64,000 nucleotides of DNA from a virus. The stretch covers positions 1 through 64,000 of IMG/VR virus record IMGVR_UViG_3300038366_000033; one strand, written 5' to 3'. The stretch's first letter is position 1. Each line of letters starts with the position of its first letter. Both the position numbers and the translations under genes were made by a program. This document shows, piece by piece, positions 1,456 to 25,012 of this stretch. The notes below the pieces were generated by a model. The model did not search any database. It was not told the origin of the DNA and was given only the letters and a program-made list of their open reading frames with translations.

Positions 1456-1475
1456 GGATGATAACAAGTAAAGCA

Positions 1476-3470: not shown

Positions 3471-3474
3471 TAGA

Positions 3475-4725: not shown

Positions 4726-4726
4726 A

Positions 4727-5711: not shown

Positions 5712-5768
5712 CTTTTCTTTCTTTTCTTTATCATTTACTTTATAAGGTTTCTTATCACTATAATAACT
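5712..5768 (+). promoter_or_regulatory. Terminator T-tract and cassette promoter, variant spacing
   Basis: T-tract 5712-5730, TATA box TTATAAGG 5740-5747. The ATG at 5769 is 22 nt away and an in-frame ATG at 5775 is 28 nt away; neither matches the usual 26. Confidence 0.7.
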
Positions 5769-5975
5769 ATGGTTATGACAACCTATGACCTACACAGCCC
5801 AGATGGACAACACGAGAAAAGCGGAACAATCAGGACCGAGGCGAGCTTTGAGACGGTGAGAGAAGCTAGAGATTCTGTAAAAGCTGATAGTGGCGAGATA
5901 TATCACTTGGTCCAGTTTCTGAACAAGAGAGGTTTCGAGACCGAGGCAGTCGACACAAAAAAGATTTTTTTCTGA
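5769..5975 (+). CDS. Small protein of unknown function
   Basis: 68 aa (66 aa if ATG 5775 is used). Contains the pattern FETVREARDSVKADSGEIY, reminiscent of small beta-alpha-beta proteins. Single-gene cassette. Confidence 0.6.
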   Translation: MVMTTYDLHSPDGQHEKSGTIRTEASFETVREARDSVKADSGEIYHLVQFLNKRGFETEAVDTKKIFF

Positions 5976-6031
5976 TTTTTCTTTTCTTATACACATACTT
6001 ATAAGAGTTGTTCCGTATAAATATAATACCG
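5976..6031 (+). promoter_or_regulatory. Terminator T-tract and leaderless cassette promoter
   Basis: T-tract 5976-5988, TATA box TTATAAGA 5999-6006 ending 26 nt before the ATG at 6032; proximal TATAATACCG. Confidence 0.85.
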
Positions 6032-6208
6032 ATGACACGAGAACGAAACTACTTCAAGGGATCCAAGGACTCCAGAAAATCCGCTTTCCAGAAAGAGGGC
6101 AGCTCCATCGTATGGGTGGAGGACGGTTCGAAGAACTCGGGAGTCAAGCAACAGATGAGCTTCGACGAGGATTTTATTCTGGACCTTGCCGAGAAGATCA
6201 GGAACTGA
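6032..6208 (+). CDS. Small protein of unknown function
   Basis: 58 aa starting MTRERNYFKG; basic N-terminal half and acidic end. Start set by the cassette promoter. Confidence 0.6.
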   Translation: MTRERNYFKGSKDSRKSAFQKEGSSIVWVEDGSKNSGVKQQMSFDEDFILDLAEKIRN

Positions 6209-6256
6209 CCCCTTCTCCTTTTCTTTATAATATTTACTATACATATCATATATACC
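6209..6256 (+). promoter_or_regulatory. Promoter of the RHH gene, variant type
   Basis: Pyrimidine tract 6209-6225 and AT-rich box TTATAATA 6226-6233, 24 nt before the ATG at 6257. It lacks the TATAATACCG element of its neighbours. Confidence 0.55.
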
Positions 6257-6460
6257 ATGACTAGCAAGAAGAAAAAGACTGTTACAATCGAAGAACACCA
6301 CTACGAGTTTCTAGATAAAACCAACATCAACGCGTCGAAGGTCCTGAGAGAGGCAGTGAATCATCTCAGATCTCAGATGACTCATGAGGAAGAGGAGCTA
6401 CTGAGGAAGGCAGCGAATCCAGGACCCGAGCAATTCGAGGGTATGGAGGTAAGGGAGTAA
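6257..6460 (+). CDS. Ribbon-helix-helix DNA-binding protein (candidate)
   Basis: 67 aa. KKTVTIEEHHYEFLDKT fits the RHH beta strand and first helix, and NASKVLREAVNHLRSQ fits the second helix. Such proteins are usually dimeric repressors or antitoxins. No toxin gene is obvious next to it. Confidence 0.6.
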   Translation: MTSKKKKTVTIEEHHYEFLDKTNINASKVLREAVNHLRSQMTHEEEELLRKAANPGPEQFEGMEVRE

Positions 6461-6511
6461 GCTTTACCTTTATAACTCTTGTTATACATATCATACATAG
6501 GGTGACACCAC
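6461..6511 (+). promoter_or_regulatory. Promoter plus GGTGA ribosome binding site
   Basis: AT box TTATAAC at 6470-6476 and a GGGTGA ribosome binding site at 6500-6505, six bases before a TTG start. The same arrangement occurs before the gene at 14051. Confidence 0.6.
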
Positions 6512-6652
6512 TTGACAACAAAACTACTTTGGCAAAACAAAGGCGAAGTTGAGCTTCTAGAAGACTACGATAACGACTACTTCAAAATCAGAGATGCCTT
6601 CGGTAACGAGGTTATGGTTCACAGAAAAGAGGTCGAATACATTGACTCTTGA
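6512..6652 (+). CDS. 46-residue protein of unknown function
   Basis: Starts with TTG, selected by the GGGTGA site. Encodes an alternating acidic/beta sequence (GEVELLEDYDNDYFKIRD) resembling a small SH3-like barrel. Overlaps the next gene by 11 bases. Confidence 0.5.
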   Translation: MTTKLLWQNKGEVELLEDYDNDYFKIRDAFGNEVMVHRKEVEYIDS

Positions 6653-6839
6653 GGAAAAGTTCTCCCGACTTGATGGGGCAGAGGTAACCGGATCTGATCC
6701 GGTAACCTTTACCATCGAGAACATCGATCCTGAGAGCGACGCGATGGTATTCAAGAACTTGAGAATGAACTACACCTTCGAGGTCGAGAGAGTGGATATC
6801 AACGACGACGGGAATCTTGAAGCGGTGATCAGAGAATGA
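6642..6839 (+). CDS. Small beta-rich acidic protein
   Basis: 65 aa from the TTG at 6642, overlapping the previous stop; GAGGT at 6630-6634 can act as ribosome binding site. ATG at 6594 is an alternative but would bury more of the previous gene. Unknown function. Confidence 0.5.
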   Translation: MTLEEKFSRLDGAEVTGSDPVTFTIENIDPESDAMVFKNLRMNYTFEVERVDINDDGNLEAVIRE

Positions 6840-7054
6840 GATACGCAATCTGGAATACCCATCAGGGCAAGTTTCTTGGTCCTATGGACCACTCGACTCC
6901 CGACACATTCACCGATAAGGAGAATCTATTCGAGTTCTTTCAGGATCAGGTCGATACCCATGACCTAGACGATATCGCGCACCTCAGAGTGGTCAGGGTC
7001 GAGATCGCGGACGACGTGGACGAGGAGGCCGCGGAGGTGGTCCAAGTTGAGTAA
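6836..7054 (+). CDS. Acidic protein of unknown function
   Basis: 72 aa beginning MRYAIWNTHQGKFLGP, coupled by ATGA overlap. The C-terminus is extremely acidic. Its GGAGGTGG near the end serves the next gene. Confidence 0.6.
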   Translation: MRYAIWNTHQGKFLGPMDHSTPDTFTDKENLFEFFQDQVDTHDLDDIAHLRVVRVEIADDVDEEAAEVVQVE

Positions 7055-7199
7055 ACATCCCATCATCGAGAACATGGACTCACAGGTCGACTCAGCTTAT
7101 TCTCACACCTGTAAGTTCTGCCAGGAGGAGTTTAACTCCGAGAGGATGTTCAGGCTTCATCAGAAGAGGGAGCATGACGAGAATCTCCCCTTCATTTAG
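7047..7199 (+). CDS. Single C2H2 zinc-finger protein
   Basis: 50 aa from a TTG start 6 nt after GGAGGTGG (7033-7040). The finger is CKFCQEEF plus FRLHQKREH with C-x2-C-x12-H-x4-H spacing. Overlaps the previous gene by 8 bases. Confidence 0.65.
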   Translation: MSKHPIIENMDSQVDSAYSHTCKFCQEEFNSERMFRLHQKREHDENLPFI

Positions 7200-7256
7200 T
7201 TTTTCTCCTTCTTATACATTCTTTTATAAGGTTTACCTTCTATAAGTATAATACCG
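7200..7256 (+). promoter_or_regulatory. Terminator T-tract and leaderless cassette promoter
   Basis: T-tract 7200-7213, TATA box TTATAAGG 7224-7231 ending 26 nt before the ATG at 7257; proximal TATAATACCG. Confidence 0.85.
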
Positions 7257-7409
7257 ATGGTTGCTATACCAGAAGATATGCTTCCCGAAGGCTTCTCCAA
7301 TCACATGGGGATGCCGATGTGCCCTTGCGGTAACATAACGGAAGTGGACGGAGAATTTCCATGCGAACACGAAAACCCAGTAAAGAAACTACTAGCAGGT
7401 GCTATATAA
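7257..7409 (+). CDS. Small zinc-binding protein
   Basis: 50 aa with CPCGN, then a CEHE site, i.e. three cysteines and a histidine in suitable spacing. Start set by the cassette promoter; the stop overlaps the next ATG by one base. Confidence 0.6.
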   Translation: MVAIPEDMLPEGFSNHMGMPMCPCGNITEVDGEFPCEHENPVKKLLAGAI

Positions 7410-7540
7410 TGAGACCTATAGATGAAGCGATGGAAGAAGCGGCAGAACATCTAGGTGAGGCTGCCGACTGCCTTCAGGACGCAGGAGATACTCAGGCACT
7501 AATCAAGGTCGAGGAAGTACTCGCGGAGGTGGAACCATGA
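7409..7540 (+). CDS. 43-residue acidic helical protein
   Basis: MRPIDEAMEEAAEHLGEAAD and a similar tail, predicted to be one long helix or coiled coil. Coupled at both ends by overlaps. Confidence 0.55.
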   Translation: MRPIDEAMEEAAEHLGEAADCLQDAGDTQALIKVEEVLAEVEP

Positions 7541-7896
7541 GTGGATGGAAGACCGCACGATTCCACGTCGGGGACGACGTAGATGGCAAAATCGAGAGCT
7601 ACTGTGAAGCTAACGAGTACGCTAGTAAACGTGGACTCAACGGAATAGTCATCCGAGGATACGACGCCAAGATTAAAGAAGCGGTCAGGAAGATTATTCC
7701 AGGCGAGGAAGGTAAAGTACTTATCGTCGAGGCGAACGATACCTCCGACTCTGGAGATGCTTTCCTGTATGAGATCACCGAGGACTACGAGCTTGAACAC
7801 GTCGAGACCAAGCGAGGCTACGAGGGGGCGCGAGGTTACGACGCTATAGGCTACATGAGGGACGAGTACGACGTGGACGCGCCTGCTGGTCCATAA
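7537..7896 (+). CDS. Acidic protein of unknown function
   Basis: 119 aa, ATGA-coupled, preceded by GGAGGTGG at 7523-7530. The C-terminus has a Gly/Tyr repeat (GYEGARGYDAIGY). No family recognised. Confidence 0.6.
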   Translation: MSGWKTARFHVGDDVDGKIESYCEANEYASKRGLNGIVIRGYDAKIKEAVRKIIPGEEGKVLIVEANDTSDSGDAFLYEITEDYELEHVETKRGYEGARGYDAIGYMRDEYDVDAPAGP

Positions 7897-7953
7897 CCTT
7901 TTTTCTTCTTATACACATACTTATAAGTCTTGTTCTGTATAAATATAATACCG
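7897..7953 (+). promoter_or_regulatory. Terminator T-tract and leaderless cassette promoter
   Basis: T-tract 7899-7910, TATA box TTATAAGT 7921-7928 ending 26 nt before the ATG at 7954; proximal TATAATACCG. Confidence 0.85.
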
Positions 7954-8505
7954 ATGTTACAGACGAAAAAAATTGAAGTACCAGACCTAGTACTCAACCA
8001 CGAGGAAAAGGACGTAACCGTAAAACTCTACAGAGAACAGGATCCCGAGGACCCACTATGTTGGCCGTCCCTAGTTACACTGGACCTAGACCATTCACGT
8101 TATGACCTAGGAGACCGTAATATCGAGAAGGAAGGTAAGACAGTCATGAAGGCTATGCCAGTGTACCTGTACGACCATTCAGGTATAACTATCAGTACTG
8201 AGCCTTTCCAGTCACGTTGGGACTCCTCCAAGATTGGAACAGCCTATGTCTTCGAGGAGGACGTCGAGGACCGAGGTGTCAAGGAAGAGCACCGTACCAA
8301 GGAACGTGCGAAGCAATGGATCGAGGACCGCGTCGAACAGTACGATAACTACCTTCGAGGTGAGATATACAGATTCGAGCTATACGAGGATGGAGAACGG
8401 ACAGACTCCTGTGGTGGCTTTCATGACTGTGGATACATGGGACGTAACGAGATCCTATGGGACCACATAGGCTATGAGAGAGAGGACTTCGAGGTGATTG
8501 ATTAA
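7954..8505 (+). CDS. Conserved phage/plasmid protein of unknown function
   Basis: 183 aa. The core PVYLYDHSGITISTEPFQ plus RWDSSKIGTAYV, and the later EQYDNYLRGEIY and DSCGGFHDCGY, resemble a family common in bacterial and archaeal viruses (remembered, not searched); its function is unknown. It uses CGT arginine codons more than its neighbours do, a hint of separate origin. First gene of a three-gene cassette. Confidence 0.7.
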   Translation: MLQTKKIEVPDLVLNHEEKDVTVKLYREQDPEDPLCWPSLVTLDLDHSRYDLGDRNIEKEGKTVMKAMPVYLYDHSGITISTEPFQSRWDSSKIGTAYVFEEDVEDRGVKEEHRTKERAKQWIEDRVEQYDNYLRGEIYRFELYEDGERTDSCGGFHDCGYMGRNEILWDHIGYEREDFEVID

Positions 8506-8654
8506 TGTCTTACCGCGTCCAGTTTACCCAGACCCTCTTGGTTGAAGAGGACTCCGAGGACGAGGCAGTCAGTACTGCAAAGAACGTTCTGTTCGACCAC
8601 TTGGGGCGCAAGGTCCTCAAGGAAGAGGACTTCGAGGTGCTAGGTGAAGAATGA
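8505..8654 (+). CDS. Small acidic protein of unknown function
   Basis: 49 aa, TAATG overlap with the previous gene. The sequence FTQTLLVEEDSEDEAVSTA followed by a short beta end suggests a beta-alpha-beta fold. Confidence 0.55.
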   Translation: MSYRVQFTQTLLVEEDSEDEAVSTAKNVLFDHLGRKVLKEEDFEVLGEE

Positions 8655-8734
8655 GACCGCGTTGCGAGAAGTGTCAGATCCGCTTTCTCCACCACTCCAA
8701 TCTGGTGTATCACTGGAAACAGGAACACCAGTAA
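8651..8734 (+). CDS. 27-residue C2H2 zinc finger
   Basis: The whole protein is one finger: MRPRCEKCQIRF plus VYHWKQEHQ, with C-x2-C-x12-H-x4-H spacing. It starts in an ATGA overlap. The metal-site spacing matches three larger relatives in the window, which supports it as a real gene despite its size. Confidence 0.6.
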   Translation: MRPRCEKCQIRFLHHSNLVYHWKQEHQ

Positions 8735-8780
8735 CTTTCCCTTTCTTTTATAAGATTTCTTATACATAACTATACTACCG
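8735..8780 (+). promoter_or_regulatory. Terminator T-tract and leaderless cassette promoter
   Basis: Pyrimidine tract 8736-8749, TATA box TTATAAGA 8748-8755 ending 26 nt before the ATG at 8781; proximal element TATACTACCG. Confidence 0.8.
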
Positions 8781-9053
8781 ATGACACGATTTATATTGAC
8801 CGCATACGAGCCTGTATATCAACATTCGGAATACAGAGTGACTACGAACCGCGAACCCGAGAAAATTCATTCAGAGGTTGATTCTCACATAGGGTCTCTG
8901 GACGGACAGTTCCACGTACGGGATACCGAGCTACAGATAAGCTACCGCGTCGTGGATTTCCAGGCAGGTCTGGACCTGATAAACGCTCTGAAGGACGACG
9001 TCATAGATAAAGAGCCTGAGGACGTAAGAGATAGTGAGTACGTCGAGGCATAA
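8781..9053 (+). CDS. Protein of unknown function, paralogue of the 14051 product
   Basis: 90 aa. Its N-terminus (ILTAYEPVYQHSEYRV) matches that of the protein encoded at 14051 (VTLKAEEPVYQLSEFN), which identifies the two as relatives. Single-gene cassette. Confidence 0.65.
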   Translation: MTRFILTAYEPVYQHSEYRVTTNREPEKIHSEVDSHIGSLDGQFHVRDTELQISYRVVDFQAGLDLINALKDDVIDKEPEDVRDSEYVEA

Positions 9054-9113
9054 TCTCTTTTTTCTTTCTTATACACACCTTTATAAGATTTCTTACCACT
9101 TACTATAATACCG
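9054..9113 (+). promoter_or_regulatory. Terminator T-tract and leaderless cassette promoter
   Basis: T-tract 9055-9071, TATA box TTATAAGA 9081-9088 ending 26 nt before the ATG at 9114; proximal TATAATACCG. Confidence 0.85.
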
Positions 9114-9500
9114 ATGACAGAATTACGAGAACAGGTTGTATTTGGACGGTCAATCGACTGGGAAGAAGAATCAGTCGGTGGAGTCGTACGCTTCAAAGAT
9201 TTAAAAACTGAGGATGCAAAACGTCTGATGAAAGCCGGAGAGATTGACCCGGAAGGTCGACAGAACAACTCACCGATGGCGAGTGAGTTTATCAAGTTCA
9301 TGGACTCTGTTGACGACCACGATATTCGTGCGATAGGGTATATGGTCGCACCGGACAGGAGCGATTCCAGGATTACGATCGAGGGCTTGAGAGTCGATGA
9401 GTCAATATCCAGAGATCTGATGCTCAGGTTTACCAACAAGTTCAGAATGGCTGATGAGTTCACGGTAGAGGAAGACTACCTGAGGTGCTGGTATGACTGA
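9114..9500 (+). CDS. Conserved hypothetical protein
   Basis: 128 aa. The pattern DPEGRQNNSPMASEFIKF, then IGYMVAPDRSDSRITIEGL, and a RCWYD end resemble a small family in phages and prokaryotes (remembered, not searched), of unknown function. Confidence 0.65.
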   Translation: MTELREQVVFGRSIDWEEESVGGVVRFKDLKTEDAKRLMKAGEIDPEGRQNNSPMASEFIKFMDSVDDHDIRAIGYMVAPDRSDSRITIEGLRVDESISRDLMLRFTNKFRMADEFTVEEDYLRCWYD

Positions 9501-9630
9501 GGTATACTGGGTGAAATCCCCGGATCTGCCTGAGAATACTATCAGGTCTTACACTGCCGACGACATAGAGCACCTAGAAGATAAGCTCAGGGACGACGGG
9601 CTCGACTGTTACGACCTAGTACATCAGTAA
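9493..9630 (+). CDS. 45-residue acidic protein
   Basis: Overlaps the previous gene by 8 bases. MTEVYWVKSPDLPENTIRSY then a charged helix; unknown function. Confidence 0.55.
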   Translation: MTEVYWVKSPDLPENTIRSYTADDIEHLEDKLRDDGLDCYDLVHQ

Positions 9631-9690
9631 TTCCTTTCTTCTTTCTTATACACATAGTTATAAGGTTTTCTGGCTATAAATATAATACCG
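9631..9690 (+). promoter_or_regulatory. Terminator T-tract and leaderless cassette promoter
   Basis: T-tract 9631-9647, TATA box TTATAAGG 9658-9665 ending 26 nt before the ATG at 9691; proximal TATAATACCG. Confidence 0.85.
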
Positions 9691-9948
9691 ATGAGCTATT
9701 TTGACCTAACACCGGATACGTACACACCAAAAGAACTTGCAGACGAAATCAACATAAACGTCGACGAGGACCGGGGGAGATATGATACACTCACCAGTAT
9801 AGTAATCGCTCTTGAAGACGTACAGTACCTGAGCGGAGACGACGATGTTAAGTGGGAGGTGATAGCCAGACTTACCGAGGCACTTAACGACCTTGAACCG
9901 GATATGGACGTGGAGGTAACAGACCGGAAAGTCAAGGTCTACCACTGA
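9691..9948 (+). CDS. Acidic protein of unknown function
   Basis: 85 aa. The segment YTPKELADEININVDEDRG resembles a short helix-turn-helix start, but the rest does not support a DNA-binding call. Single-gene cassette. Confidence 0.6.
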   Translation: MSYFDLTPDTYTPKELADEININVDEDRGRYDTLTSIVIALEDVQYLSGDDDVKWEVIARLTEALNDLEPDMDVEVTDRKVKVYH

Positions 9949-10003
9949 TTTTTTCTTCTTATACACATGTTTATAAGTCTTGGGTTCTATAAGTATAATA
10001 CCG
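9949..10003 (+). promoter_or_regulatory. Terminator T-tract and leaderless cassette promoter
   Basis: T-tract 9949-9960, TATA box TTATAAGT 9971-9978 ending 26 nt before the ATG at 10004; proximal TATAATACCG. Confidence 0.85.
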
Positions 10004-10462
10004 ATGGAAGAACTACAACGAGATCTAGCGGAGAAGTTAACTCTGTTTATGGAGGAAAATCAGCAATTTCACATCTCTAGGGAGTACACATCCGACGACG
10101 GCCTGACCCTGCAGGTACTTGTAGACTTTGGCATTGAGGACCGGGACGATGGTATGGCTTACCCTGCTGACGTGTTCGCGCGGTTCCAGGATAACATGGA
10201 GTACCTGCACGATCAGGGGATCCTTGAGGAAGGAGACAGGATAGAGGATATAAACAACGATGAGCTGAGAGATCTAATAGGAAATCACGAGCTCTTTACG
10301 GAGTTGAGGTCCGACCTGATTCGTGCGGTCAGACAGGTATTTGATATACCTAGGTCCACTAAGTTGGGTGTTCCGGCCCAGATGTCAGACGTCGATATAG
10401 ACGGACGCGTTGACATACACTACGGAATATGGAATACAAGGGACGGGGTCGAGAGCCCCTGA
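10004..10462 (+). CDS. Acidic protein of unknown function
   Basis: 152 aa starting MEELQRDLAEKL. Mostly helical and acidic, ending HYGIWNTRDGVESP. The IWNT motif also occurs near the start of the 6836 product. No family recognised. Confidence 0.65.
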   Translation: MEELQRDLAEKLTLFMEENQQFHISREYTSDDGLTLQVLVDFGIEDRDDGMAYPADVFARFQDNMEYLHDQGILEEGDRIEDINNDELRDLIGNHELFTELRSDLIRAVRQVFDIPRSTKLGVPAQMSDVDIDGRVDIHYGIWNTRDGVESP

Positions 10463-10515
10463 TTTTCTTCTTATCAATTCATTTATAAGGTTTCTTATAC
10501 ATAACTATAATACCG
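10463..10515 (+). promoter_or_regulatory. Terminator T-tract and leaderless cassette promoter
   Basis: T-tract 10463-10472, TATA box TTATAAGG 10483-10490 ending 26 nt before the ATG at 10516; proximal TATAATACCG. Confidence 0.85.
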
Positions 10516-11091
10516 ATGGGACAGTACTATACGATAGCTAACCTTGACGCGAAAGAGTACGTAAAACCTAGAAAACTTGGATCAGGACTTAAGCTCTGGG
10601 AGATCAGTATGACAAATGTTCCTCAGATCCTGCCTTACCTACTGAGAGAGACAGATAGTTCAGGTGGTGGCGACCCGAGAGTCAGACTTGAGAGAGACCC
10701 CGACATGGATGTAGAAGAACAGCTTGAGATCGAGAGACGGCGCACAGCAGAAGTTTACTCCATGATGGGTAACTGGGCAGGAGATAGAGTTGTGTTCCTA
10801 GGCGATTATACAGAAAGGGAATCTGAGGAATACGGGAACCTATACCAAGAGGTCCAGCAGAGCGAGGAATGGACGGACGTTTCCCGGACCGTGGCTAAAG
10901 AGGTCGCAGACTTTATCGACCACGAGGACAAGAACCCGGAAGTGCCTAAGGACCCACAGGAGTGCGACCACGAGGATCCTATGATTACCAGATACAGCGA
11001 CGAGGAAACATACGGGGACTTCTACTGTAGGGAATGTCATATGTCAAAAGAGCTAGAGACGGAAGAAGAACTAGGTGAAATCCGCGCCTAA
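10516..11091 (+). CDS. Conserved MGQYY-family protein with zinc-ribbon tail
   Basis: 191 aa. The N-terminus MGQYYTIANLDAKEYVKPR, then GSGLKLWE, and the later NWAGDRVVFLGDY belong to a widespread prokaryotic and phage family of unknown function (remembered, not searched). A C-terminal addition has CDHEDP and CRECH, a likely metal site. Confidence 0.75.
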   Translation: MGQYYTIANLDAKEYVKPRKLGSGLKLWEISMTNVPQILPYLLRETDSSGGGDPRVRLERDPDMDVEEQLEIERRRTAEVYSMMGNWAGDRVVFLGDYTERESEEYGNLYQEVQQSEEWTDVSRTVAKEVADFIDHEDKNPEVPKDPQECDHEDPMITRYSDEETYGDFYCRECHMSKELETEEELGEIRA

Positions 11092-11219
11092 ATTTTTTTT
11101 CTTTCTATTTCTACATATATAAAAGTTGAGTGTTATGTATTTTGATTAGGGATCCGGTGTTAACCGTACGTGTCTTATGTACAAGTATATAAAGGTTGTT
11201 ATACAATACTTCAATACCG
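11092..11219 (+). promoter_or_regulatory. Terminator T-tract and two promoters for the 11220 gene
   Basis: T-tract 11093-11110. A first TATA-like box (ATATATAAAAG) lies near 11125-11135. The second, ATATAAAG 11187-11194, ends 26 nt before the ATG at 11220 and is followed by CAATACCG, so it is the likely start-site promoter. Confidence 0.7.
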
Positions 11220-12017
11220 ATGGAAACACAACAAAAACAGGATGTTCCAGACACAACAGACGTACTGGAATCTATGCTGAAAACCAACACCGGACGTCAC
11301 CCACTCGACTCCGGTTCACACTATGGACGCAACTTTGAAGAAAATCAGAAAATAAAAGATCTAGAAGATGCACCTGTCTCGACCCATGACATCAGGAACT
11401 ACGATGACGAAATAGAATTGATTAGTTATGTATCGACGTATCATTTCCTGAAATACCGCGTCGATTATGATTCTGAAGCCCATGAGCTACAGCAACAGTT
11501 CGAGGACTACTGTGATAATCTGGATGCTCTAGAGGGTGAATCATGGTTAAGCTGCATGGAAATGCTCTTTGGGGGCGCGACCGTCAACACCTACAACCAT
11601 GAGCACATAGTCGATCAGGTCCTGCAGTTCTCTGGTTTCTCACTCGAACACGTGGGGTATGTATCTGATCGAGACCCGAGGCCCGAGGACCATGAGTTCG
11701 TACTCGGTGAACGTATAGTTCAGGCCGTCGAGGATATACATGGAGACTTTGTAGCTCTACAGATACACAATGGGTGCGACGTACGTGGGGGATACACATC
11801 TCCGACCGTATTCCGTGCGACCCATGGACTTGATTACCTGATTATGTCTCCAGGAACCGACGTATCATGTACTGAGTGCGGATGGGTCGCTGCTCAACGT
11901 GATGGCTATCATAAAGAGGGTGCATGGGACGAACTCGAATACCGTGAGGAACCGGATCTGATCTTCCATACGGAATGTGGGTCCGAATGTACGGTAAGGT
12001 CGATGGTACAAATATAG
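11220..12017 (+). CDS. Conserved phage-type protein with NTGRHxLDSG motif
   Basis: 265 aa. The segment LKTNTGRHPLDSGSHYGRNF near residue 23 is a signature of a family found in many phages and plasmids (remembered, not searched), with unknown function. The C-terminal third has CTECGWVA and a later ECGSECTV, forming a probable zinc site. Last gene of the cassette series. Confidence 0.75.
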   Translation: METQQKQDVPDTTDVLESMLKTNTGRHPLDSGSHYGRNFEENQKIKDLEDAPVSTHDIRNYDDEIELISYVSTYHFLKYRVDYDSEAHELQQQFEDYCDNLDALEGESWLSCMEMLFGGATVNTYNHEHIVDQVLQFSGFSLEHVGYVSDRDPRPEDHEFVLGERIVQAVEDIHGDFVALQIHNGCDVRGGYTSPTVFRATHGLDYLIMSPGTDVSCTECGWVAAQRDGYHKEGAWDELEYREEPDLIFHTECGSECTVRSMVQI

Positions 12018-12052
12018 GCACATTCCCTCTTCCATTCTTATTTTGAATACCT

Positions 12053-12102
12053 ATTCGGTGAGACACACACACAACGGTAAAGTTCCCATATTAAATACCT
12101 TT
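12053..12102 (+). promoter_or_regulatory. Conserved 50-bp promoter block, copy A
   Basis: GGTGAGACACACACAC, then AAAGTTCCC, then the TATA box TTAAATAC at 12091-12098. Same order and spacing as copies B, C and D. The only start codon at the expected place (ATG 12118) opens a 4-codon frame, so the product may be a non-coding RNA. Confidence 0.7.
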
Positions 12103-12163
12103 CCGTGGCAGACTGTTATGAGTACTAAGTGAAAAGGCAAATTCAATTGAGATCTGAAGGTCC

Positions 12164-12213
12164 ATTCGGTGAGACACACACACAGTGCCAACTTTCCCAC
12201 TTTATAAACCTAT
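12164..12213 (+). promoter_or_regulatory. Conserved 50-bp promoter block, copy B
   Basis: Same block 111 bp downstream of copy A: GGTGAGACACACACAC, AACTTTCCC and TATA box TTTATAAAC. No reading frame begins at the predicted start; sequence downstream is rich in stop codons. Confidence 0.7.
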
Positions 12214-12465
12214 CAAGCAAGATCTAATTCAATCGAGTAGTAGAATAGAGAGCTAAGGTACCTGAGAATACTAATAAGGCGGCCATTAGTTACCAAAGGG
12301 GTAACTAACTAACGGGGTATACTCGGGGTTAACCGGACCACGCCGTGGACCATACTACAACTATTACTCACGCTCGTTTATAAGTATTAATGTGACTGGA
12401 AAACTGGAAGCAACATGGAGATCATGCGCACCCTTATAAGCTTTAGTATACAATATCTTATTACA

Positions 12466-12651
12466 ATGGAACGAACTACACTTGCGGTCCCTGTCAAGTT
12501 CAGGGAGATGCTCAACGAAAACTACGACGGCGAAAACGATCTAGAACGACTCAAGCTCTGGGCCAATGAATACGAGGTAAGCGAAGAACACGGTGACGTG
12601 CCCGACCAGATGATGATAAAGGTGGAGAACATGATCGAGAAAGAGGCCTAG
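12466..12651 (+). CDS. Small acidic protein, RHH-like N-terminus
   Basis: 61 aa. TTATAAGC at 12434-12441 ends 25 nt before this ATG, so it is preferred to the ATG at 12415. The start MERTTLAVPVKFREMLNE resembles an RHH strand and helix, but the assignment is weak. Confidence 0.6.
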   Translation: MERTTLAVPVKFREMLNENYDGENDLERLKLWANEYEVSEEHGDVPDQMMIKVENMIEKEA

Positions 12652-12653
12652 GG

Positions 12654-12812
12654 ATGAGCTCTCTCTCGGAATATGCCGAGTACGAACACGTTCTTAGTGA
12701 GAAGGACGTCATAGAACTTTACTCAGCCTGTGAGAGGGGCGACATTGAACTGACAGATGAGCTATTGAGAAACCTGCAATTTGAAGCGGAAAAGATCCGA
12801 GAACAGGCATAG
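12654..12812 (+). CDS. 52-residue acidic protein
   Basis: Begins MSSLSEYAEYEHVLSEKD, two bases after the previous stop. Predicted helical; unknown function. Confidence 0.55.
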   Translation: MSSLSEYAEYEHVLSEKDVIELYSACERGDIELTDELLRNLQFEAEKIREQA

Positions 12813-12881
12813 TCCCTCTTACTTCTTTTCAGATCTGAGGACCATAATTCTTTTCAGAGCTTCTATATATACTAAGACACA

Positions 12882-13280
12882 ATGACAGCAGACTACTACG
12901 CGGACGGCAAGAAGATTGTAGTTAAAGCCAAGGATGGAAGAGAGTTTCACAAAGAGGCCACGGTAACAGAGCCAGATAGGAATAAGTACTACAATATTAG
13001 AGTGGGCGGCAAAGATGGCGCGGCCAAGTTCACAGATGTTGCACGATTTAACGAGGAGGAAGAGTTCCTGCTGGATGAGGTAAGATTGATCTATAACGGA
13101 GAGATGGTCGCGCTCAGAAAGGTCGAACCTGTATATGTACAACCATCGGATGATATAGAGATCACATATGAGTTTGAGCTCAAAAGAGACAGGGGAGTAA
13201 TCAAGGCGATGTCTCCGGTTTCCAGTGGAAACAAAGGTTGGATCTCAAGGGTGAAGGGGGGTCTTGGGCGTCTTCTATGA
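12882..13280 (+). CDS. Protein of unknown function
   Basis: 132 aa, leaderless from a TATATAT box at about 12863-12870. Mostly beta with a basic C-terminal end (SRVKGGLGRLL). No family recognised. Confidence 0.65.
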   Translation: MTADYYADGKKIVVKAKDGREFHKEATVTEPDRNKYYNIRVGGKDGAAKFTDVARFNEEEEFLLDEVRLIYNGEMVALRKVEPVYVQPSDDIEITYEFELKRDRGVIKAMSPVSSGNKGWISRVKGGLGRLL

Positions 13281-13641
13281 GCTTTCACTTGAGCGTACTA
13301 TCAGAGAGAGTTCCACATGAAATCAGGGTGAGATCTACTACTCAATCGGTCAATCTAGGGGTTGATTAGTGATCTCAGAGGAAGTTTCTCTTACAAGTTC
13401 GGTCGGTATAGCACACTTTCTGAACGCCTAGGCACACTTTCTGACCACCCGATGTAAAGTACACTTTACGTAATACTTTGTAATATGCCCTCATATGTTC
13501 CTGAGTACTCCCTCTCACTTCTGATACAGACACCTAGAACTTCAGTACTATACAGTAACGACTAATCGAGTATTACAATTTTCACTGGCTCTAAGAATAA
13601 ATACCCTTTATATATTTTACTACCCCTATTATTTGTTACCT
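13281..13641 (+). repeat. Gene-free stretch with direct repeats and a palindrome
   Basis: GCACACTTTCTGA occurs twice (13411-13423, 13432-13444), 21 bp apart, and the ACACTTT core recurs at 13461-13467 inside the palindrome GTAAAGT-AC-ACTTTAC (13454-13469). The right end is AT-rich and carries the TATA box TTTATATA (13608-13615) of the next gene. Iteron-like origin or operator is possible. Confidence 0.5.
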
Positions 13642-13821
13642 ATGACCGACGACGACTCTACTTCATGTCCAAGTTGTGACGCACCAGCACCAAAAGCACA
13701 GATAGAAACTCTAGGCGAGTGTGAGAGATGTCACTATAACTCCGATCAGGAGATCACTTCCGCGAATACAGAAACCAAGAAGACCAGTGACGCTTCTATT
13801 ATCGCCAAGTGGCAGAAGTAA
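13642..13821 (+). CDS. Small zinc-ribbon protein
   Basis: 59 aa with CPSCD and CERCH knuckles. The ATG at 13642 lies 27 nt after the TATA box; TTG 13633 is less likely. The stop TAA overlaps the next ATG. Confidence 0.65.
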   Translation: MTDDDSTSCPSCDAPAPKAQIETLGECERCHYNSDQEITSANTETKKTSDASIIAKWQK

Positions 13822-13997
13822 TGACACGCTGGAATCGACAGTTACGGAAACGCCTTCAGGAGGCGCATGAGGACACCGAGCACCCTGAATTGAAGAAACG
13901 CCTAGAGAGACTTAATGAGGAACTTTCAGAGACACCTCTACTTTCAGACGACGAGTTCGACGAGCTAGAGAAACGGATCAACGGCATAGTTTGTTAA
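13821..13997 (+). CDS. Small helical protein of unknown function
   Basis: 58 aa, TAATG-coupled. A charged amphipathic helix (LKKRLERLNEELSETPLL) suggests a coiled coil or short dimerisation segment. Confidence 0.6.
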   Translation: MTRWNRQLRKRLQEAHEDTEHPELKKRLERLNEELSETPLLSDDEFDELEKRINGIVC

Positions 13998-14050
13998 CGA
14001 CACCATACTTATAAGTTTTCTTACTTAATTAGTACATAGGGTGACAACCT

Positions 14051-14335
14051 ATCGAAGTTACACTAAAGGCTGAAGAACCAGTCTATCAACTTTCAGAATT
14101 TAACTCAAGCATGGAGAGAAAAGCTAAAAGAAACACAACTATGGAAGGTCTCGAACACGCCAATCGTTTTTACTGGATTGAGGCGCATGACGACTCTGAG
14201 GAAGTACTTGTCGTAAGCGACTTTATGGTTGCAGAACAGATTATGTCTAGATTCAACGAGGGCGACTTTGACTCGCTTCAGGAAGCTGCTGACATGACCG
14301 ATAACGCACACATCGAGGAGGATCGCCCATGGTAG
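14051..14335 (+). CDS. Protein of unknown function with probable AUC start
   Basis: 94 aa. GGGTGA at 14039-14044 sits exactly as far from ATC 14051 as the same site sits from the TTG at 6512. No ATG, GTG or TTG is available in frame between the upstream stop (14042-14044) and the conserved region. The first 20 residues match the N-terminus of the 8781 product (EPVYQxSE), so translation must begin upstream of the ATG at 14111. TATA box TTATAAGT at 14009-14016. Confidence 0.6.
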   Translation: MEVTLKAEEPVYQLSEFNSSMERKAKRNTTMEGLEHANRFYWIEAHDDSEEVLVVSDFMVAEQIMSRFNEGDFDSLQEAADMTDNAHIEEDRPW

Positions 14336-14436
14336 TTCATACGTGTGTCGAGTGCGGTAAAATCTATCGTGCCGGAACCGGAGAGTCTGAATGTCCACAC
14401 TGTGAGACCACCCAGCAGGTGACAGATGATGAGTAA
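14329..14436 (+). CDS. 35-residue zinc-ribbon protein
   Basis: CVECGKIY and CPHCE form a textbook zinc ribbon of minimal length. Overlaps the previous gene by 7 bases and the next by 8. Confidence 0.6.
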   Translation: MVVHTCVECGKIYRAGTGESECPHCETTQQVTDDE

Positions 14437-14545
14437 GAGATGTTGTGGCGACACAGACATCTTCCAAGACATAGACGGACAGATAAGATGTTCGTCATGC
14501 GAAAACATCATCTATGACTATGTATCAACAGGTGATATAGAATGA
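14429..14545 (+). CDS. 38-residue zinc-ribbon-like protein
   Basis: MSKRCCGDTDIFQ then CSSCENIIYDY: paired cysteines 16 residues apart. GGTGA at 14418-14422 is 6 nt before ATG 14429 (ATG 14426 is too close). ATGA overlap with the next gene. Confidence 0.55.
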   Translation: MSKRCCGDTDIFQDIDGQIRCSSCENIIYDYVSTGDIE

Positions 14546-14940
14546 AGATGGTCGATTCTCACAAACTTACCTGCGAGTGTGGAGAGGAAATCGAGAACAT
14601 AGACGAAGCCAAGGAACACTTCCAGTCCCGACCCGACGAGATGAGAATGAACGAACACCTAGACGGTTACAACTTCCATGGGTTCGAGTTTGTCGGGTTC
14701 GATGCCCACACTCACAGTGCCCGATGGTCGCATCAGGACCTCGATTTATGGTTCTACGCGACACCTGCCTCATGGTTCATGCCGGACGAGGAAGGTTATG
14801 TGCAGTTCCAGGTTGAGGGCGGCGGAGCCTTCAGGGAGCTTCAGGGGCAGGTCGTCCACAAGGCTTTCTTCGAGGAGACCCTGAGCTTTCAGGAATACAG
14901 GGAAATGGTAAAACACTTCATAGAGGATCACTTCCTATGA
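14542..14940 (+). CDS. Protein of unknown function with N-terminal CxC site
   Basis: 132 aa. N-terminal LTCECGEEIENIDEAKEHFQ looks like a half zinc ribbon; the remainder is rich in aromatic residues (DLWFYATPASWFMP). Start preceded by GGTGAT. ATGA overlaps at both ends. Confidence 0.65.
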   Translation: MKMVDSHKLTCECGEEIENIDEAKEHFQSRPDEMRMNEHLDGYNFHGFEFVGFDAHTHSARWSHQDLDLWFYATPASWFMPDEEGYVQFQVEGGGAFRELQGQVVHKAFFEETLSFQEYREMVKHFIEDHFL

Positions 14941-15119
14941 AGGAGACCTACGAGGTTATGCTGTATGAGGACCCCGATACCTACATACACTATGCCGACA
15001 CCCGGGATAATGTCCCGAGATACGTGGAAGAACACGCCGAAAACGTGGAAAAGGCAGATCTGAGCTATCTGGAAGACAACTTTGTTACCGGCGACATCAG
15101 CCGTCTACTTGAGGAGTAA
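14937..15119 (+). CDS. 60-residue acidic protein
   Basis: ATGA-coupled to the previous gene. MKETYEVMLYEDPDTYIHYA followed by acidic helices. Unknown function. Confidence 0.6.
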   Translation: MKETYEVMLYEDPDTYIHYADTRDNVPRYVEEHAENVEKADLSYLEDNFVTGDISRLLEE

Positions 15120-15141
15120 CTCTCCTCGGCGGCTATTTCCT

Positions 15142-15378
15142 ATGACATATCCTATTACCGAGAGTATGTACGAGTTACTTGAAATCTTCGAAAACAACAA
15201 CCAAAACCTATCAGAGATCGCGGAAGAACACGACATGGACTACTCGACTCTCTCACGCACAAAAGACCTTATGAAGGACAGAGGCTGGATCAACGAGGAT
15301 CCTACGTACAATTACTCTGTATACTTCAACAACGAGAGAGGTCAGAAAGTCCTGAAACTGTTGAGGGAGATGCCATGA
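15142..15378 (+). CDS. Winged-helix DNA-binding protein
   Basis: 78 aa. NLSEIAEEHDMDYSTLSRTK is a clear helix-turn-helix, followed by the wing (GWINEDPTYNYSVYF). No strong ribosome binding site precedes ATG 15142. ATGA-coupled to the next gene, beginning a likely four-gene operon ending with the AAA+ ATPase and its partner. Confidence 0.7.
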   Translation: MTYPITESMYELLEIFENNNQNLSEIAEEHDMDYSTLSRTKDLMKDRGWINEDPTYNYSVYFNNERGQKVLKLLREMP

Positions 15379-15971
15379 CCCAGACGTTCATGAAGACCCT
15401 CAACAACATATCCAAGGCCCTCTGGGAGAAGAGTGACGACGGCGAAATATCCGAACAGGAGATCAAAAAGACCATCAAGGTCGAGGCAGGATATACGGTC
15501 GTCGATAAGTACTGGGACGAGCTTCACGATTTCAACAGAGTCGAACAGGTCCCGGAGACCCAGACGTGGATAGTCTCGAAACCCGAGAAAGTTGGTATAG
15601 AAAAGACCAATACGGACGTCGAGAAGAGATCGAAGAAAGTCCTAGTGCCGGAAGATGTTTTACAGGCAGCGAAACAGTACGGCGTCGATTTCTCGAAAGT
15701 CTTTACGGAGGCACTGATCGAGGAAGTTTCCGACGTCAAGTCCTTTCTCGAAACCTACATGGGCGGAAAGTACAACGACACTGAGTCAAAGTACATCTTC
15801 GAGCTATTCAAGAAGGGTCTCGATACCCATGAAGGCAGAGATACAGAGAGAGCCAGGAGAGATAAGAGACGCAGAGAGCTCTACAAGGACATCTTCGAGA
15901 CCAGTAAAGCCGATAGAGAACACATAGGCGAACTCAGGAAGAAGGCGGCAGAGCTTGGCCAAATACTATAA
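15375..15971 (+). CDS. Protein with CcdA/RHH-like segment
   Basis: 198 aa. Residues about 90-118 (VLVPEDVLQAAKQYGVDFSK then VFTEALIEEV) resemble the RHH DNA-binding core of CcdA-type proteins. The C-terminus is a very basic/acidic helix. Sits between a winged-helix gene and an AAA+ ATPase, suggesting a replication or partition complex (inference). Confidence 0.5.
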   Translation: MTQTFMKTLNNISKALWEKSDDGEISEQEIKKTIKVEAGYTVVDKYWDELHDFNRVEQVPETQTWIVSKPEKVGIEKTNTDVEKRSKKVLVPEDVLQAAKQYGVDFSKVFTEALIEEVSDVKSFLETYMGGKYNDTESKYIFELFKKGLDTHEGRDTERARRDKRRRELYKDIFETSKADREHIGELRKKAAELGQIL

Positions 15972-15995
15972 AAGACTTTGGTGATAGTAACAAGT

Positions 15996-17210
15996 ATGGG
16001 ACTCGACACGAACAAGGGGTTGTTAAAACACAACGCCGAGCAGTACGCGAAGAAGCGCAACGTAGACCCAGCTCTCATTGACTTCGAAAGCATTATTGAC
16101 ACAGAACTTTCTGACGGTGAGAACTGGAGAAAAATCGACAACCAAGTAAAAAAACACATGGACCCAGATGCAAAGCTGGATGAGGAAACACCTCACAAGG
16201 ACGAGATCGCTGCCAAGGAGAGAGAGATTCAGGAAAAATACATAGAGGAAATAGAGAAAGATAAGAAGCTCGATCTCCACAAACAGTTCAAGGACGATAT
16301 GCACGAGGAGGTACAGTCCTTTTACAGTATGTTCAACTACTACCTCAAGTCCATATGCCGCGGACATCATACTTCATTCATGGTCAACGCGGATCCTGGA
16401 ATCGGTAAGTCGTATCAAACCACACAGACTCTGATCAACGAGGTCGGCGAGGACAAGTTCACCAAGTCCCCTGCCGTTGCCTCGCCGTTCCAGTTTTACA
16501 AACAGCTTTGGGAACTTGAGGAGTCACAACAGGACATTCTGGTCCTTGACGACATCGAAGGTCTGCTTCGAAGTAAGAAGGCACTCGCCATTCTGAAACA
16601 GGCGACGTGGACAGAGACCGAGGACAGATTTGTCGGTTGGAACTCTTCTCCCTCGAAGCTTCAGACCAAAAACGGGAAGGACATACCGAAGGAGTTCAAG
16701 TTCACTGGCAAACTTATCATGATATTCAACGAAGTGCCAGAGGACGACATCATCTTCGAGTCACTGCGAGATCGATGCTTCTACTATGAGCTCTCCTTTG
16801 ACTATGAACAGAAGTGTCAACTTCTACGGGCTCTCGCCGACAAGGGTATGGGTTACGATGTCGATCAGGCCGATCGCGAGGAGATTGCATCGTGGCTCAT
16901 CGATGTCTCGAACCCGGCGACGTCGGATCTGAACTTACGTACGTTCGAACTTGCACTCAAACACTTCAAGGGTGCGCGTGACATTCAGGACATCGATGTT
17001 ACGTGGCGTGACGTCATACGTACAAACATGGACATCGACAGAAAGCTCGAAGCGGCACGTGAGGTCATCAAGGATCCTTCACTCACATCTCCTGGAGAGA
17101 GACAGGACGAGTTCAAGTCCATGACAGGACTCTCCAAGAGAACTTACAGGAACGCACGTGAAGAGCTACGTGAAAACTCACAGGAGATCAGGGAGATTCT
17201 GGACCAGTGA
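15996..17210 (+). CDS. AAA+ ATPase
   Basis: 404 aa. Walker A NADPGIGKSYQT at about residues 130-141, Walker B DILVLDDIEG near 180-190, sensor-1 IMIFNE near 241 and a following ESLRDRC arginine region. The N-terminal 100 residues are a charged helical domain. The ATG at 15996 follows GGTGAT; GTG 15978 is an alternative. Helicase-loading, replication initiation or DNA packaging are possible; the context favours replication. Confidence 0.75.
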   Translation: MGLDTNKGLLKHNAEQYAKKRNVDPALIDFESIIDTELSDGENWRKIDNQVKKHMDPDAKLDEETPHKDEIAAKEREIQEKYIEEIEKDKKLDLHKQFKDDMHEEVQSFYSMFNYYLKSICRGHHTSFMVNADPGIGKSYQTTQTLINEVGEDKFTKSPAVASPFQFYKQLWELEESQQDILVLDDIEGLLRSKKALAILKQATWTETEDRFVGWNSSPSKLQTKNGKDIPKEFKFTGKLIMIFNEVPEDDIIFESLRDRCFYYELSFDYEQKCQLLRALADKGMGYDVDQADREEIASWLIDVSNPATSDLNLRTFELALKHFKGARDIQDIDVTWRDVIRTNMDIDRKLEAAREVIKDPSLTSPGERQDEFKSMTGLSKRTYRNAREELRENSQEIREILDQ

Positions 17211-17211
17211 G

Positions 17212-17715
17212 TTGGAAAACTGGAAACAGTATATGGAACACGCGTTCATCAAGCAGTACTGGTCGCTCGGGGGTTCGACTCCTCCGGCTGCTATCTATGG
17301 TAACAACTACCATGCATACCATACAACTTTACGGCGAGGTAAAATCACAATGATGGATCAACCATTTTACATGGTCGAGGTATCAAGATCGGACGCGGAA
17401 AAGATGCAGACGTACATGTTCGAAAACAACCTTCAGCATTACTTCGACATGGACGAGAGAAGAGTCGAGAAGGTCGAGAGAGTACCACTGGAAAAGATCA
17501 ACCACTTCACAGAGGAACACGTACAGGAACTCTTCAGAAGCCTAGAACAGGAATACGACTTCAGCTTCGAGAAGGACCACTCGGACATGAAGAAATCTGT
17601 CCAAGAGATGAGAGAGGCTATCAGAGATGCTCTGGTAAGTGAGCTCATCCAGAAGGGAGATAAGGACGACACGTTCTCAGAGGCTCTTTTGAGAGGTGTA
17701 GAAGATGCCGGTTAA
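17212..17715 (+). CDS. Protein of unknown function, partner of AAA+ gene
   Basis: 167 aa if TTG 17212 just after the ATPase stop is used; ATG 17233 and an upstream GTG (17158) are alternatives. The C-terminal half is a long helical segment (DMKKSVQEMREAIRDALVSE). No family recognised. Confidence 0.6.
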   Translation: MENWKQYMEHAFIKQYWSLGGSTPPAAIYGNNYHAYHTTLRRGKITMMDQPFYMVEVSRSDAEKMQTYMFENNLQHYFDMDERRVEKVERVPLEKINHFTEEHVQELFRSLEQEYDFSFEKDHSDMKKSVQEMREAIRDALVSELIQKGDKDDTFSEALLRGVEDAG

Positions 17716-17878
17716 AGAGGTAACAGTCGAGGATCCTGGAGACGGATATATCAAACACGAACTCGGCGACGCCAAAGTCGAGGTAATTTACCGGGCGGAC
17801 GACGAACTAGAGGTGGTCTTTACAAACGGCGACCGCTATGTGTACCCGATTTCAAGAGTGGTGTACTACGTAAAATGA
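17705..17878 (+). CDS. Small beta-rich protein of unknown function
   Basis: 57 aa overlapping the previous gene by 11 bases. Alternating strands ending DRYVYPISRVVYYVK suggest a small barrel. ATGA overlap with the next gene. Confidence 0.6.
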   Translation: MPVKEVTVEDPGDGYIKHELGDAKVEVIYRADDELEVVFTNGDRYVYPISRVVYYVK

Positions 17879-18336
17879 AAAGGAGAGTGAGAGTAAAAAC
17901 AGGGGTGTCGATGCTTTCAGTCGCCTTACTTGTTGTTATCTCATTCGTACTGGGACAGGCGACATCGAACCCCGAGCTCACATTGAATCAGGCCGAGACC
18001 CCAGCATGGGAGTACATGCACGTCAACTACACGGGGAGCTTTCACTCTGGCGGATACCACTTTCACTTCAGACAGCAAGGCGAGGGCATGTTAAGAAACA
18101 ACTCTGTGGGGATTACAAGAGCCAAGGACCCCAGAAATGACATATACATCAGGACAGATAGGTCCGGCAAAGCGATCATCAGGACGTGCCGACACGAGGT
18201 CCTGCACCACTACTTCCCGAACTACAAGCACCAAGATGATGTCAGCAGGTGGGACGACCCTATCTATATGTTAGAGGACAACGTCGAGTTCGCCACCTGT
18301 AAGTACATGATGCAGAAGATTCAGAGACTATCCTAG
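17875..18336 (+). CDS. Membrane-anchored HExxH putative metallopeptidase
   Basis: 153 aa. A signal anchor at residues 10-27 (SMLSVALLVVISFVLG) is followed by an outward domain with several His and the zincin motif HEVLH at 107-111. H119, E134 or E138 could be the third zinc ligand. Cys105 and Cys142 could form a disulphide. Role in entry, egress or superinfection control is inference; the family was not recognised beyond the motif. Confidence 0.6.
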   Translation: MKRRVRVKTGVSMLSVALLVVISFVLGQATSNPELTLNQAETPAWEYMHVNYTGSFHSGGYHFHFRQQGEGMLRNNSVGITRAKDPRNDIYIRTDRSGKAIIRTCRHEVLHHYFPNYKHQDDVSRWDDPIYMLEDNVEFATCKYMMQKIQRLS

Positions 18337-18596
18337 GCCGGGACAAAATACCGGCCCTCTCCACATTCTGGACACTCGAAGTGGAATAGCTCCTTACCTC
18401 TTTCGATATCGTCATCTAGGTGACGATCACCTGTTTTCTTATATACTTCTAGTACCTCTTCGATTCCCTTCCAGATACGTCTTCCCTTGATCGTGATATC
18501 GCACTTGTTTGGTCCGGTCGGTTTCATCTCCTCGGAGGTTCTCGCTTTGAACTTGGCCTTGATCTTCTCGGTCTTCTCGTCGAAGTCCATATACAC
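18333..18596 (-). CDS. Small zinc-binding protein
   Basis: 87 aa. C-terminal HFECPECGEGRYFVPA is a half zinc ribbon; an earlier KCDI cysteine may help. GTG 18596 lies 27 nt from the TATA box of promoter block C and is preferred as a leaderless start; ATG 18590 is in frame. Confidence 0.65.
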   Translation of the reverse strand: MYMDFDEKTEKIKAKFKARTSEEMKPTGPNKCDITIKGRRIWKGIEEVLEVYKKTGDRHLDDDIERGKELFHFECPECGEGRYFVPA

Positions 18597-18617
18597 ATAT
18601 TAGAGACCCAGACACAT

Positions 18618-18667
18618 AAAGGTATTTAAAGCGGGAACTTTGGGCTTGTGTGTGTGTCTCACCGAAT
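18618..18667 (-). promoter_or_regulatory. Conserved 50-bp promoter block, copy C
   Basis: On the minus strand: GGTGAGACACACACAC, AAAGTTCCC and TATA box TTTAAATAC in the same spacing as copies A, B and D. It drives the 18596 gene. Confidence 0.75.
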
Positions 18668-18714
18668 GAGTGTTCAATTCCAGAAGTTTCCACATGAAAC
18701 CAAGGTAAACACAA

Positions 18715-18764
18715 AAAGGTATTTAAGGTGGGAAAGTTGCCGCCGTGTGTGTGTCTCACCGAAT
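18715..18764 (-). promoter_or_regulatory. Conserved 50-bp promoter block, copy D
   Basis: Second minus-strand copy, 97 bp upstream of copy C, with AACTTTCCC and CTTAAATAC. An ATG 24 nt past the box opens a 31-codon frame that runs through copy C; this is probably chance. Confidence 0.7.
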
Positions 18765-18879
18765 GAGTGTTCAGATTCAACCTGCATTTAAAAGGGCCCA
18801 TCTTACAGAATCTGTAAACGTTTCTGAACAGTTTTCCACATAACCTTTTTGAATGACTTTTACATGACAACAGCTTACA

Positions 18880-23666: not shown

Positions 23667-24152
23667 ATGGGCTTTGATCTTGACTCTCTCAAAGTCGCCG
23701 AGATATCGGGAGAGGGCGCCCGGAAGAAGGTAGATCACATCATAGAACGGAACCACTACCTGCAGTCAGTACCCTTCGTGCCTACAAAACACAGATACCT
23801 GATCACCTTCGGTCTCAAAGGCGTGGTCGGTGCCGCAGCGTGGGGCAAGCCGGTCGCACGTATGGAGGACCAAGAAGATACTGTAGAACTCCTGAGGTTC
23901 TGGACCGCCGACTCCACGCCGAAGAATACTGAGTCCAAGGCCCTAGGGTACATGATGCGAGACATGAAGGACAAGGGCTATGAGAGACTGATCGCCTACG
24001 CCTCCGAGGGAGAAAACCACGAAGGGACAATCTACAGGGCGACGAACTGGGAGATAGAGAAGAGAACAAACAGGTCGGGCACGTGGGAAAACAGATCCGG
24101 CAGAAACGACCGCGACAAGGCAGATAAGATCAAGTTCTGTAAGCAACTGTAA
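23667..24152 (+). CDS. Mom-like GNAT-fold protein, candidate DNA modification enzyme
   Basis: 161 aa. Features of the phage Mom/GNAT group: RNHYLQSVPFVP, VVGAAAWGKPV, then ELLRFWTADSTPKNTESKAL (conserved Arg-x-Trp and N-T-E-S), LIAYAS and HEGTIYRATNWE. Mom of phage Mu adds an acetamido group to adenine and shields DNA from restriction. The neighbouring DNA methyltransferase on the other strand supports a genome-protection role. Alternative: an unrelated GNAT acetyltransferase. Confidence 0.6.
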   Translation: MGFDLDSLKVAEISGEGARKKVDHIIERNHYLQSVPFVPTKHRYLITFGLKGVVGAAAWGKPVARMEDQEDTVELLRFWTADSTPKNTESKALGYMMRDMKDKGYERLIAYASEGENHEGTIYRATNWEIEKRTNRSGTWENRSGRNDRDKADKIKFCKQL

Positions 24153-24175: not shown

Positions 24176-25012
24176 TTAAGTTTGTTTGAGCCTATTAAGT
24201 GACTGATTGATGTACTCTTGCTGCGTTTCCATTCCGATATATTCTCTATCTCTTCTCTTAGCCGCCACTAAACAACTTCCGCTTCCAGCAAAGATGTCTA
24301 CTACTTTGTCTCCTTTGTACGAGTAGAATTTGATTACTCTTTCAGCCAACTCTACTGGGAAAGGGCAAGGATGGTCTGTTTCTTGAGGTGCTGTAGGTCT
24401 AATCTTCCAGGCATTTTTGCTTTGCTCTCCCTGATAGTCAGAAAGATCTATTTCATTCTCTTCCTTTTGCTCTTGACTTTTGTCGTGGTAGATATTCTGT
24501 TTTGAGTCGCTTTCTGCTGGTTTCTGGAAGACGAAAATATATTCTGTCACTAGACTTGGATAATAATAACCAGGGTATGGATGCTGCATCAACACTCCGG
24601 ATCTTCTATCCTTAGCAACTGGTTTTTCCCAGACTATATCCTCTTGGAACTCCCAGCCAATCTCTTCCATCCAGCTGACGAAATGAAAGGGTAATGCAAC
24701 TCTATCTCCGTTCCAGGAGACAGGAGCGATGTTAACGACATTATATCCACCGGGCTCTGTTATTCTGAATAGCTCTTCAAACCTCTCAGTCAGAAAGTCT
24801 CTGTACTCATCATAATTTATATCCTCCCTCTCCCATTTTTCGTCATTGTCTAAATTTTGCGTGTGTTCATCATAATTCACAGCATTGAGGTATGGTGGAG
24901 ATGTGAAGCACAAAGTAATCTCACTCTTGTCTATATCCCTCATCACATTAAGACAGTCACCTTTGATAATAGTCCCTTTGGATCCAAATGTTTCATAGTC
25001 GGAAAATTCCAT
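24176..25012 (-). CDS. N4/N6-type DNA methyltransferase
   Basis: 278 aa. Motif IV TSPPYLNAV at about residue 36 and motif I VVDIFAGSGS at about 235 give the beta-class order. SPPY is typical of N4-cytosine enzymes. No restriction endonuclease is adjacent, so it looks like an orphan protective or regulatory methylase. It is AT-richer than its neighbours and points the other way, signs of recent transfer. Confidence 0.85.
   Translation of the reverse strand: MEFSDYETFGSKGTIIKGDCLNVMRDIDKSEITLCFTSPPYLNAVNYDEHTQNLDNDEKWEREDINYDEYRDFLTERFEELFRITEPGGYNVVNIAPVSWNGDRVALPFHFVSWMEEIGWEFQEDIVWEKPVAKDRRSGVLMQHPYPGYYYPSLVTEYIFVFQKPAESDSKQNIYHDKSQEQKEENEIDLSDYQGEQSKNAWKIRPTAPQETDHPCPFPVELAERVIKFYSYKGDKVVDIFAGSGSCLVAAKRRDREYIGMETQQEYINQSLNRLKQT

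Follow-up and report, generated by a model that had tools for sequence, protein, structure and literature searches.

Here, we find that a block of about 60 nt occurs in four ungapped copies in a viral genome. In every copy the elements keep one order and one spacing: an invariant 20-mer (ATTCGGTGAGACACACACAC) comes first, followed by AANNTTCCC and a TATA box. Copies A and B on the plus strand and copies D and C on the minus strand form two tandem pairs that face each other across about 6 kb. As judged from the letters of the DNA, the block is best read as a small co-regulated class of multi-copy viral promoters. It appears to us rather probable that this class answers to one viral regulator shared by both units, with D/C and A/B acting as tandem promoters whose transcripts converge. 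Multi-copy promoters are already known from similar viruses; what sets this case apart is that the 20-mer upstream of the BRE region is invariant, that the tandem pairs face each other and that three copies are gene-less. The window that we analysed comprises the first 64,000 nt (bases 1-64000) of a virus record of 78,377 bases.

The four copies claimed by the initial annotation are indeed all in place. Block A (12044-12103, plus strand) consists of TGAA, five nucleotides, the 20-mer, six nucleotides, AAAGTTCCC and the TATA box (ATTAAATACC), with a predicted start at about 12116. Block B (12155-12214, plus strand) keeps this order of elements, with AACTTTCCC and the TATA box TTTATAAACC, and has its predicted start at about 12227. 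On the minus strand, block D (18714-18773), the upstream copy of its pair, carries AACTTTCCC and CTTAAATACC and would start at about 18701, and block C (18617-18676) carries AAAGTTCCC and TTTAAATACC, with a predicted start at about 18604, 14 nt before the ATG at 18590. The motif in front of the TATA box had been written as AA(A/C)(G/T)TTCCC, and correctly so: A and C contain AAAGTT while B and D contain its reverse complement, AACTTT, so that the form shared by all copies is AANNTTCCC.

Conservation among the copies is sharply delimited. In their ungapped core, 40 of 62 columns are invariant, the longest invariant run being 20, and these columns are clustered beyond what permutation gives (p about 4e-4). 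The conserved stretch extends from the TGAA, 13 nt upstream of GGTGAG, to about 12 nt past the start of the TATA box, and the region of the expected start site shows no conservation among the four copies. An invariant 20-mer lying beside a variable 6-nt spacer reflects patchy constraint rather than uniform recent copying. GGTGAGACACACACAC has exactly four occurrences; when up to three mismatches are allowed it has five matches for 0.63 expected, a number reached in none of 100 shuffles. With the same tolerance, TTCCCNNNTTAAATACCTT is found within the window only at the four copies. A 73-nt weight matrix gives the four copies 89-103 bits, no other site in the 78-kb record scoring above -8 and the maxima of five random sequences ranging from -11 to +0.3, and by this measure there is no fifth or degenerate copy in the 78 kb. 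The copies are thus, like the promoter repeats of halovirus HF2, several near-identical intergenic repeats of about 60 nt that are present nowhere else in the genome.

Start sites were predicted 26 nt after the first TATA base, as mapped for HF2 promoters (PMC8707807). Relative to these starts, the 20-mer spans about -63 to -44. AANNTTCCC falls at -37 to -29, which is the position of the BRE, and for this reason it is less likely to be another regulator site than core promoter; the candidate regulator site is the 20-mer. A promoter with an upstream regulator site, as first proposed, holds as the best reading of a block with fixed spacing, except that AANNTTCCC more likely belongs to the core promoter. 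In block C the TATA box is 40 nt upstream of the ATG at 18590, which gives a predicted leader of 14 nt. The presence of the TATA box and BRE region at an exact spacing from the 20-mer in four of four copies also bears on another reading, in which a viral DNA-binding protein would use the copies mainly as operator, replication or partition sites (iterons) and the TATA box would be incidental. Several identical sites in inverted pairs, with winged-helix and ribbon-helix-helix-like proteins nearby, would suit such a role, but the exact spacing argues against it, as does the lack of a GC skew turn at 12-19 kb, and we consider it very unlikely. The inverted arms formed by the facing pairs, 65-73 nt long and 78-82% alike, could likewise be thought of as bounding a 6-kb segment that inverts or transposes. 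This seems extremely unlikely, as the arms are promoter-shaped, each side is itself a tandem pair, and none of those segment proteins that were scanned with Pfam, PHROGs and NCBIfam proved to be a recombinase or transposase.

The record is taken as that of an uncultured tailed virus whose host is an archaeon and very probably a haloarchaeon, on the basis of a RadA-type recombinase, acidic proteins and predicted short-leader TATA promoters. The best structure matches of the recombinase are archaeal Rad51/RadA proteins (E 5e-58 and 1e-54), and the viral proteins are strongly acidic, with a median pI of about 4.5. Strongly acidic proteins are typical of salt-in halophiles. The window encodes an HK97-type major head protein, a tape-measure protein, a ribonucleotide reductase, a Mom-like protein and a head-protease-like protein, and a terminase is encoded in the same record beyond the window. 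The ends of the record are alike but not exactly so, its last 1.66 kb or so (L009 16714-18377) matching its first 1.67 kb (window 1-1670) with 92% identity. A circular or terminally redundant genome map is probable, with reads at the join that vary; the 92% match could correspond to variant reads at a circular join or to diverged terminal repeats.

Among the four copies, only C has a coding-like gene directly behind it. This gene, of 85 codons (18333-18590, minus strand), has viral-type codon usage, with 0.31 bits per codon, true viral genes having 0.11-0.46 and off-frame readings falling below zero; its product has a CPEC motif and weak matches to Zn-ribbons. Behind D lies a 31-codon ORF with a score of -0.28, which does not look coding. 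D and C thus look like tandem promoters of the 85-codon gene, with only C standing at the gene start. It had been noted that A and B lack a gene at the expected start, and this was borne out: A is followed only by a four-codon ORF (MSTK) and B by no ORF. The DNA from A to 12412 contains no coding-like frame. A and B look like tandem promoters whose RNA would begin in non-coding DNA and enter the plus-strand genes from 12466 onwards. The run of genes that may be read in this way extends from 12466 to 18336 between the two pairs, and the first of them (12466-12651, plus strand) encodes a 61-aa protein that by eye is ribbon-helix-helix-like (TTLAVPVKFREML).

The absence of genes behind A, B and D, in a region packed with small single-promoter genes, would also be expected if these three were leftover promoters of small genes lost from a fast-changing region, C alone being in use. 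We find this unlikely, as the 20-mer is identical in the four copies despite their diverged neighbours, which suggests continuing constraint on all of them. Alternatively, A and B could be regulated promoters that make a short non-coding regulatory RNA ending before 12.4 kb and do not feed the plus-strand genes. Indeed, the approximately 190 nt after B (12227-12414, plus strand), a putative leader or non-coding RNA, are non-coding in all six frames, and the starts at 12415 and 12466 each have their own TATA box, that of gene 12466 being at 12434. Against such an RNA, the predicted fold of this stretch is no better than that of shuffles (z about -0.1; -0.09), it has no Rfam match, and it contains no T-rich terminator, which makes this outcome improbable. 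On the plus strand, T5 tracts are absent between 12.0 kb and 14167, and hence between A and gene 12466; on the minus strand there is none from D's own leader to 17899, nor within the 430 nt past the stop of the 85-codon gene. Nothing obvious would therefore halt the RNA from A/B before 12466, or that from C/D before it crosses the convergent gene. Because gene 12466 has a TATA box of its own, A/B need not be its main promoter and may be dispensable for the gene run.

In the reading that we favour, that of a co-regulated promoter class, one virus-encoded DNA-binding protein would probably act on the 20-mer of all four copies, so that a single regulator would control the plus and minus units jointly. 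On the minus strand, D and C would drive the CxxC gene of 85 codons; A and B would start in non-coding DNA, with a long leader running into the plus-strand genes at 12.47-18.34 kb; and the two sets of transcripts would converge, one antisense to the other where they overlap near 18.3 kb. There, the stop codons of 18590-18333 (minus) and of the convergent 17875-18336 (plus) overlap in the palindrome CTAG, at 18333-18336. Many antisense transcripts are produced by HFTV1 (PMC12542753). A more far-reaching version, in which the regulator fires both facing pairs so as to yield sense and antisense RNA across the 6-kb gene block, with A/B producing a non-coding regulatory RNA, we regard as doubtful. 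If true, this arrangement would give an archaeal virus a regulated switch based on convergent transcription. The facing pairs make regulated antisense transcription directly testable.

Candidate binders are encoded nearby. They include a winged-helix regulator within the enclosed 6 kb (15142-15378, plus strand; HTH_45, E 5e-6, query 15133-15375), the ribbon-helix-helix-like protein of 12466-12651, whose model shows a strand-helix-helix arrangement at low confidence, and the CxxC protein of 18590-18333, for which binding would mean autoregulation. The single-sequence structure models of two candidate regulators are too poor to rely on (mean pLDDT 54 and 66). As to the direction of control, activation is slightly favoured over repression, since the putative site is clear of the BRE and TATA box, and since the T at -6 and the C at -3 near the TATA box, present in all four copies, differ from the G and A that TFB is described as preferring at Sulfolobus virus promoters (PMC11065993). 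An almost equally good fit is repression of the kind put forward for SvtR, in which the protein binds upstream and then spreads; at one target SvtR binds about 80 nt upstream of the TATA/BRE (PMC5569661). Moreover, the HF2 repeats are active without viral factors, and mutation of their upstream alpha motif left activity in the reporter host unaffected (PMC8707807), so that conservation of an upstream motif does not by itself mark it as an activator site.

The closest parallel to the block is found in HF2, which has seven class I (56-58 bp) and two class II (29 bp) intergenic repeats that are distinctive of its genome and are active promoters, the class I repeats keeping a motif 5′ of the BRE; these repeats are believed to give viral temporal regulators a handle (PMC8707807). 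In both cases an archaeal tailed virus carries several copies of a genome-specific repeat of about 58 nt, a proven promoter in HF2 and a putative one here, that combines TATA/BRE with class-specific motifs (PMC8707807). In our copies a TATA box and an upstream motif stand at fixed spacing, and the start sites are predicted ones. The sequence, however, is different, the most conserved part here is the 20-mer at -63 to -44 with an unconserved initiation region, and our copies are arranged as facing tandem pairs, three of the four without a gene at the start. In SIRV2, the early genes have in common a regulatory sequence located around their core promoters (PMC11065993). The block resembles this sequence and that of the early (anti-defence) genes of other archaeal viruses in that a virus-specific sequence, probably bound by a viral regulator, surrounds several core promoters (PMC11065993). 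Unlike the SIRV2 sequences, which precede many single small early genes, the four copies have one clear target gene. AvtR of AFV6 binds eight sites and SvtR of SIRV1 several in their own virus genomes (PMC5569661), and a regulon in which one small viral DNA-binding protein occupies several sites upstream of promoters is what we envisage here; the comparison is one of organization rather than of site sequence, and the binder in our virus is a candidate only. Temporal gene control in halophilic archaeal viruses is poorly understood and viral regulator sites have hardly been mapped, and the compact element described here, with its four copies and sharply bounded 20-mer, is well suited as bait for isolating a viral transcription factor.

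No true match to the block outside this virus turned up in the collections searched, which may leave out records very near the window. Exact-pattern scans of IMG/VR and GTDB for the block gave chance hits only, in bacteria or their phages; two bacterial phages that we inspected (L010, L011) match the pattern but lack the rest of the block, and two bacterial contigs (L026, L027) match at chance rate. In GTDB, the scan was made with a gapped exact pattern and its two chance matches lie in a rumen bacterium and in Phocaeicola; by this pattern the block is absent from the cellular genomes covered and does not behave as a host promoter type. Protein searches that started from the enclosed ATPase and from the 10.5-kb gene gave no relative, and the DNA of the block region had no match in phage and plasmid records. 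A terminase search revealed one close relative (L012, 82% identity), whose 45.8-kb contig spans only the other half of the genome, and no relative covering 11-19 kb was found by IMG/VR pattern and protein searches, the GTDB pattern or phage and plasmid DNA.

The same virus has a second promoter class, of 13-14 near-identical modules of 59-67 nt at window 3009-11231. Each module consists of a pyrimidine tract, CTTATACACAT, CTTATAAGGTTT and TATAATACCGATG, with conserved upstream sequence, and nearly all of them end in an ATG a few bases past the expected start; the pattern has no match in IMG/VR. This class is likely an early regulon of small genes, and this array at 3-11 kb is a closer match to the SIRV2 arrangement than is the four-copy block. 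The initial annotation had called conservation far upstream of the TATA box unusual for archaea, a view that does not stand for archaeal viruses, as HF2 class I, the SIRV2 early genes and this second class all have it. With promoter classes of conserved flanks common in this genome and with the HF2 and SIRV2 precedents, the four-copy block adds to a known kind.

Some other features of the virus and its relative are worth recording. The relative's contig (L018 361-2772) has 12 tRNA genes in about 2.4 kb, and none was detected in the virus of the window. Between the facing pairs, window 15978-17210 encodes a P-loop protein related to phrog_1250, with weak kinship to proteins annotated nrdC.10 in T4-like phages. 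The Mom-like DNA modification protein is encoded at window 23667-24152 (phrog_1384, E 3e-32), and adjoining its gene on the opposite strand is a gene (24176-25012) that by eye appears DNA methylase-like.
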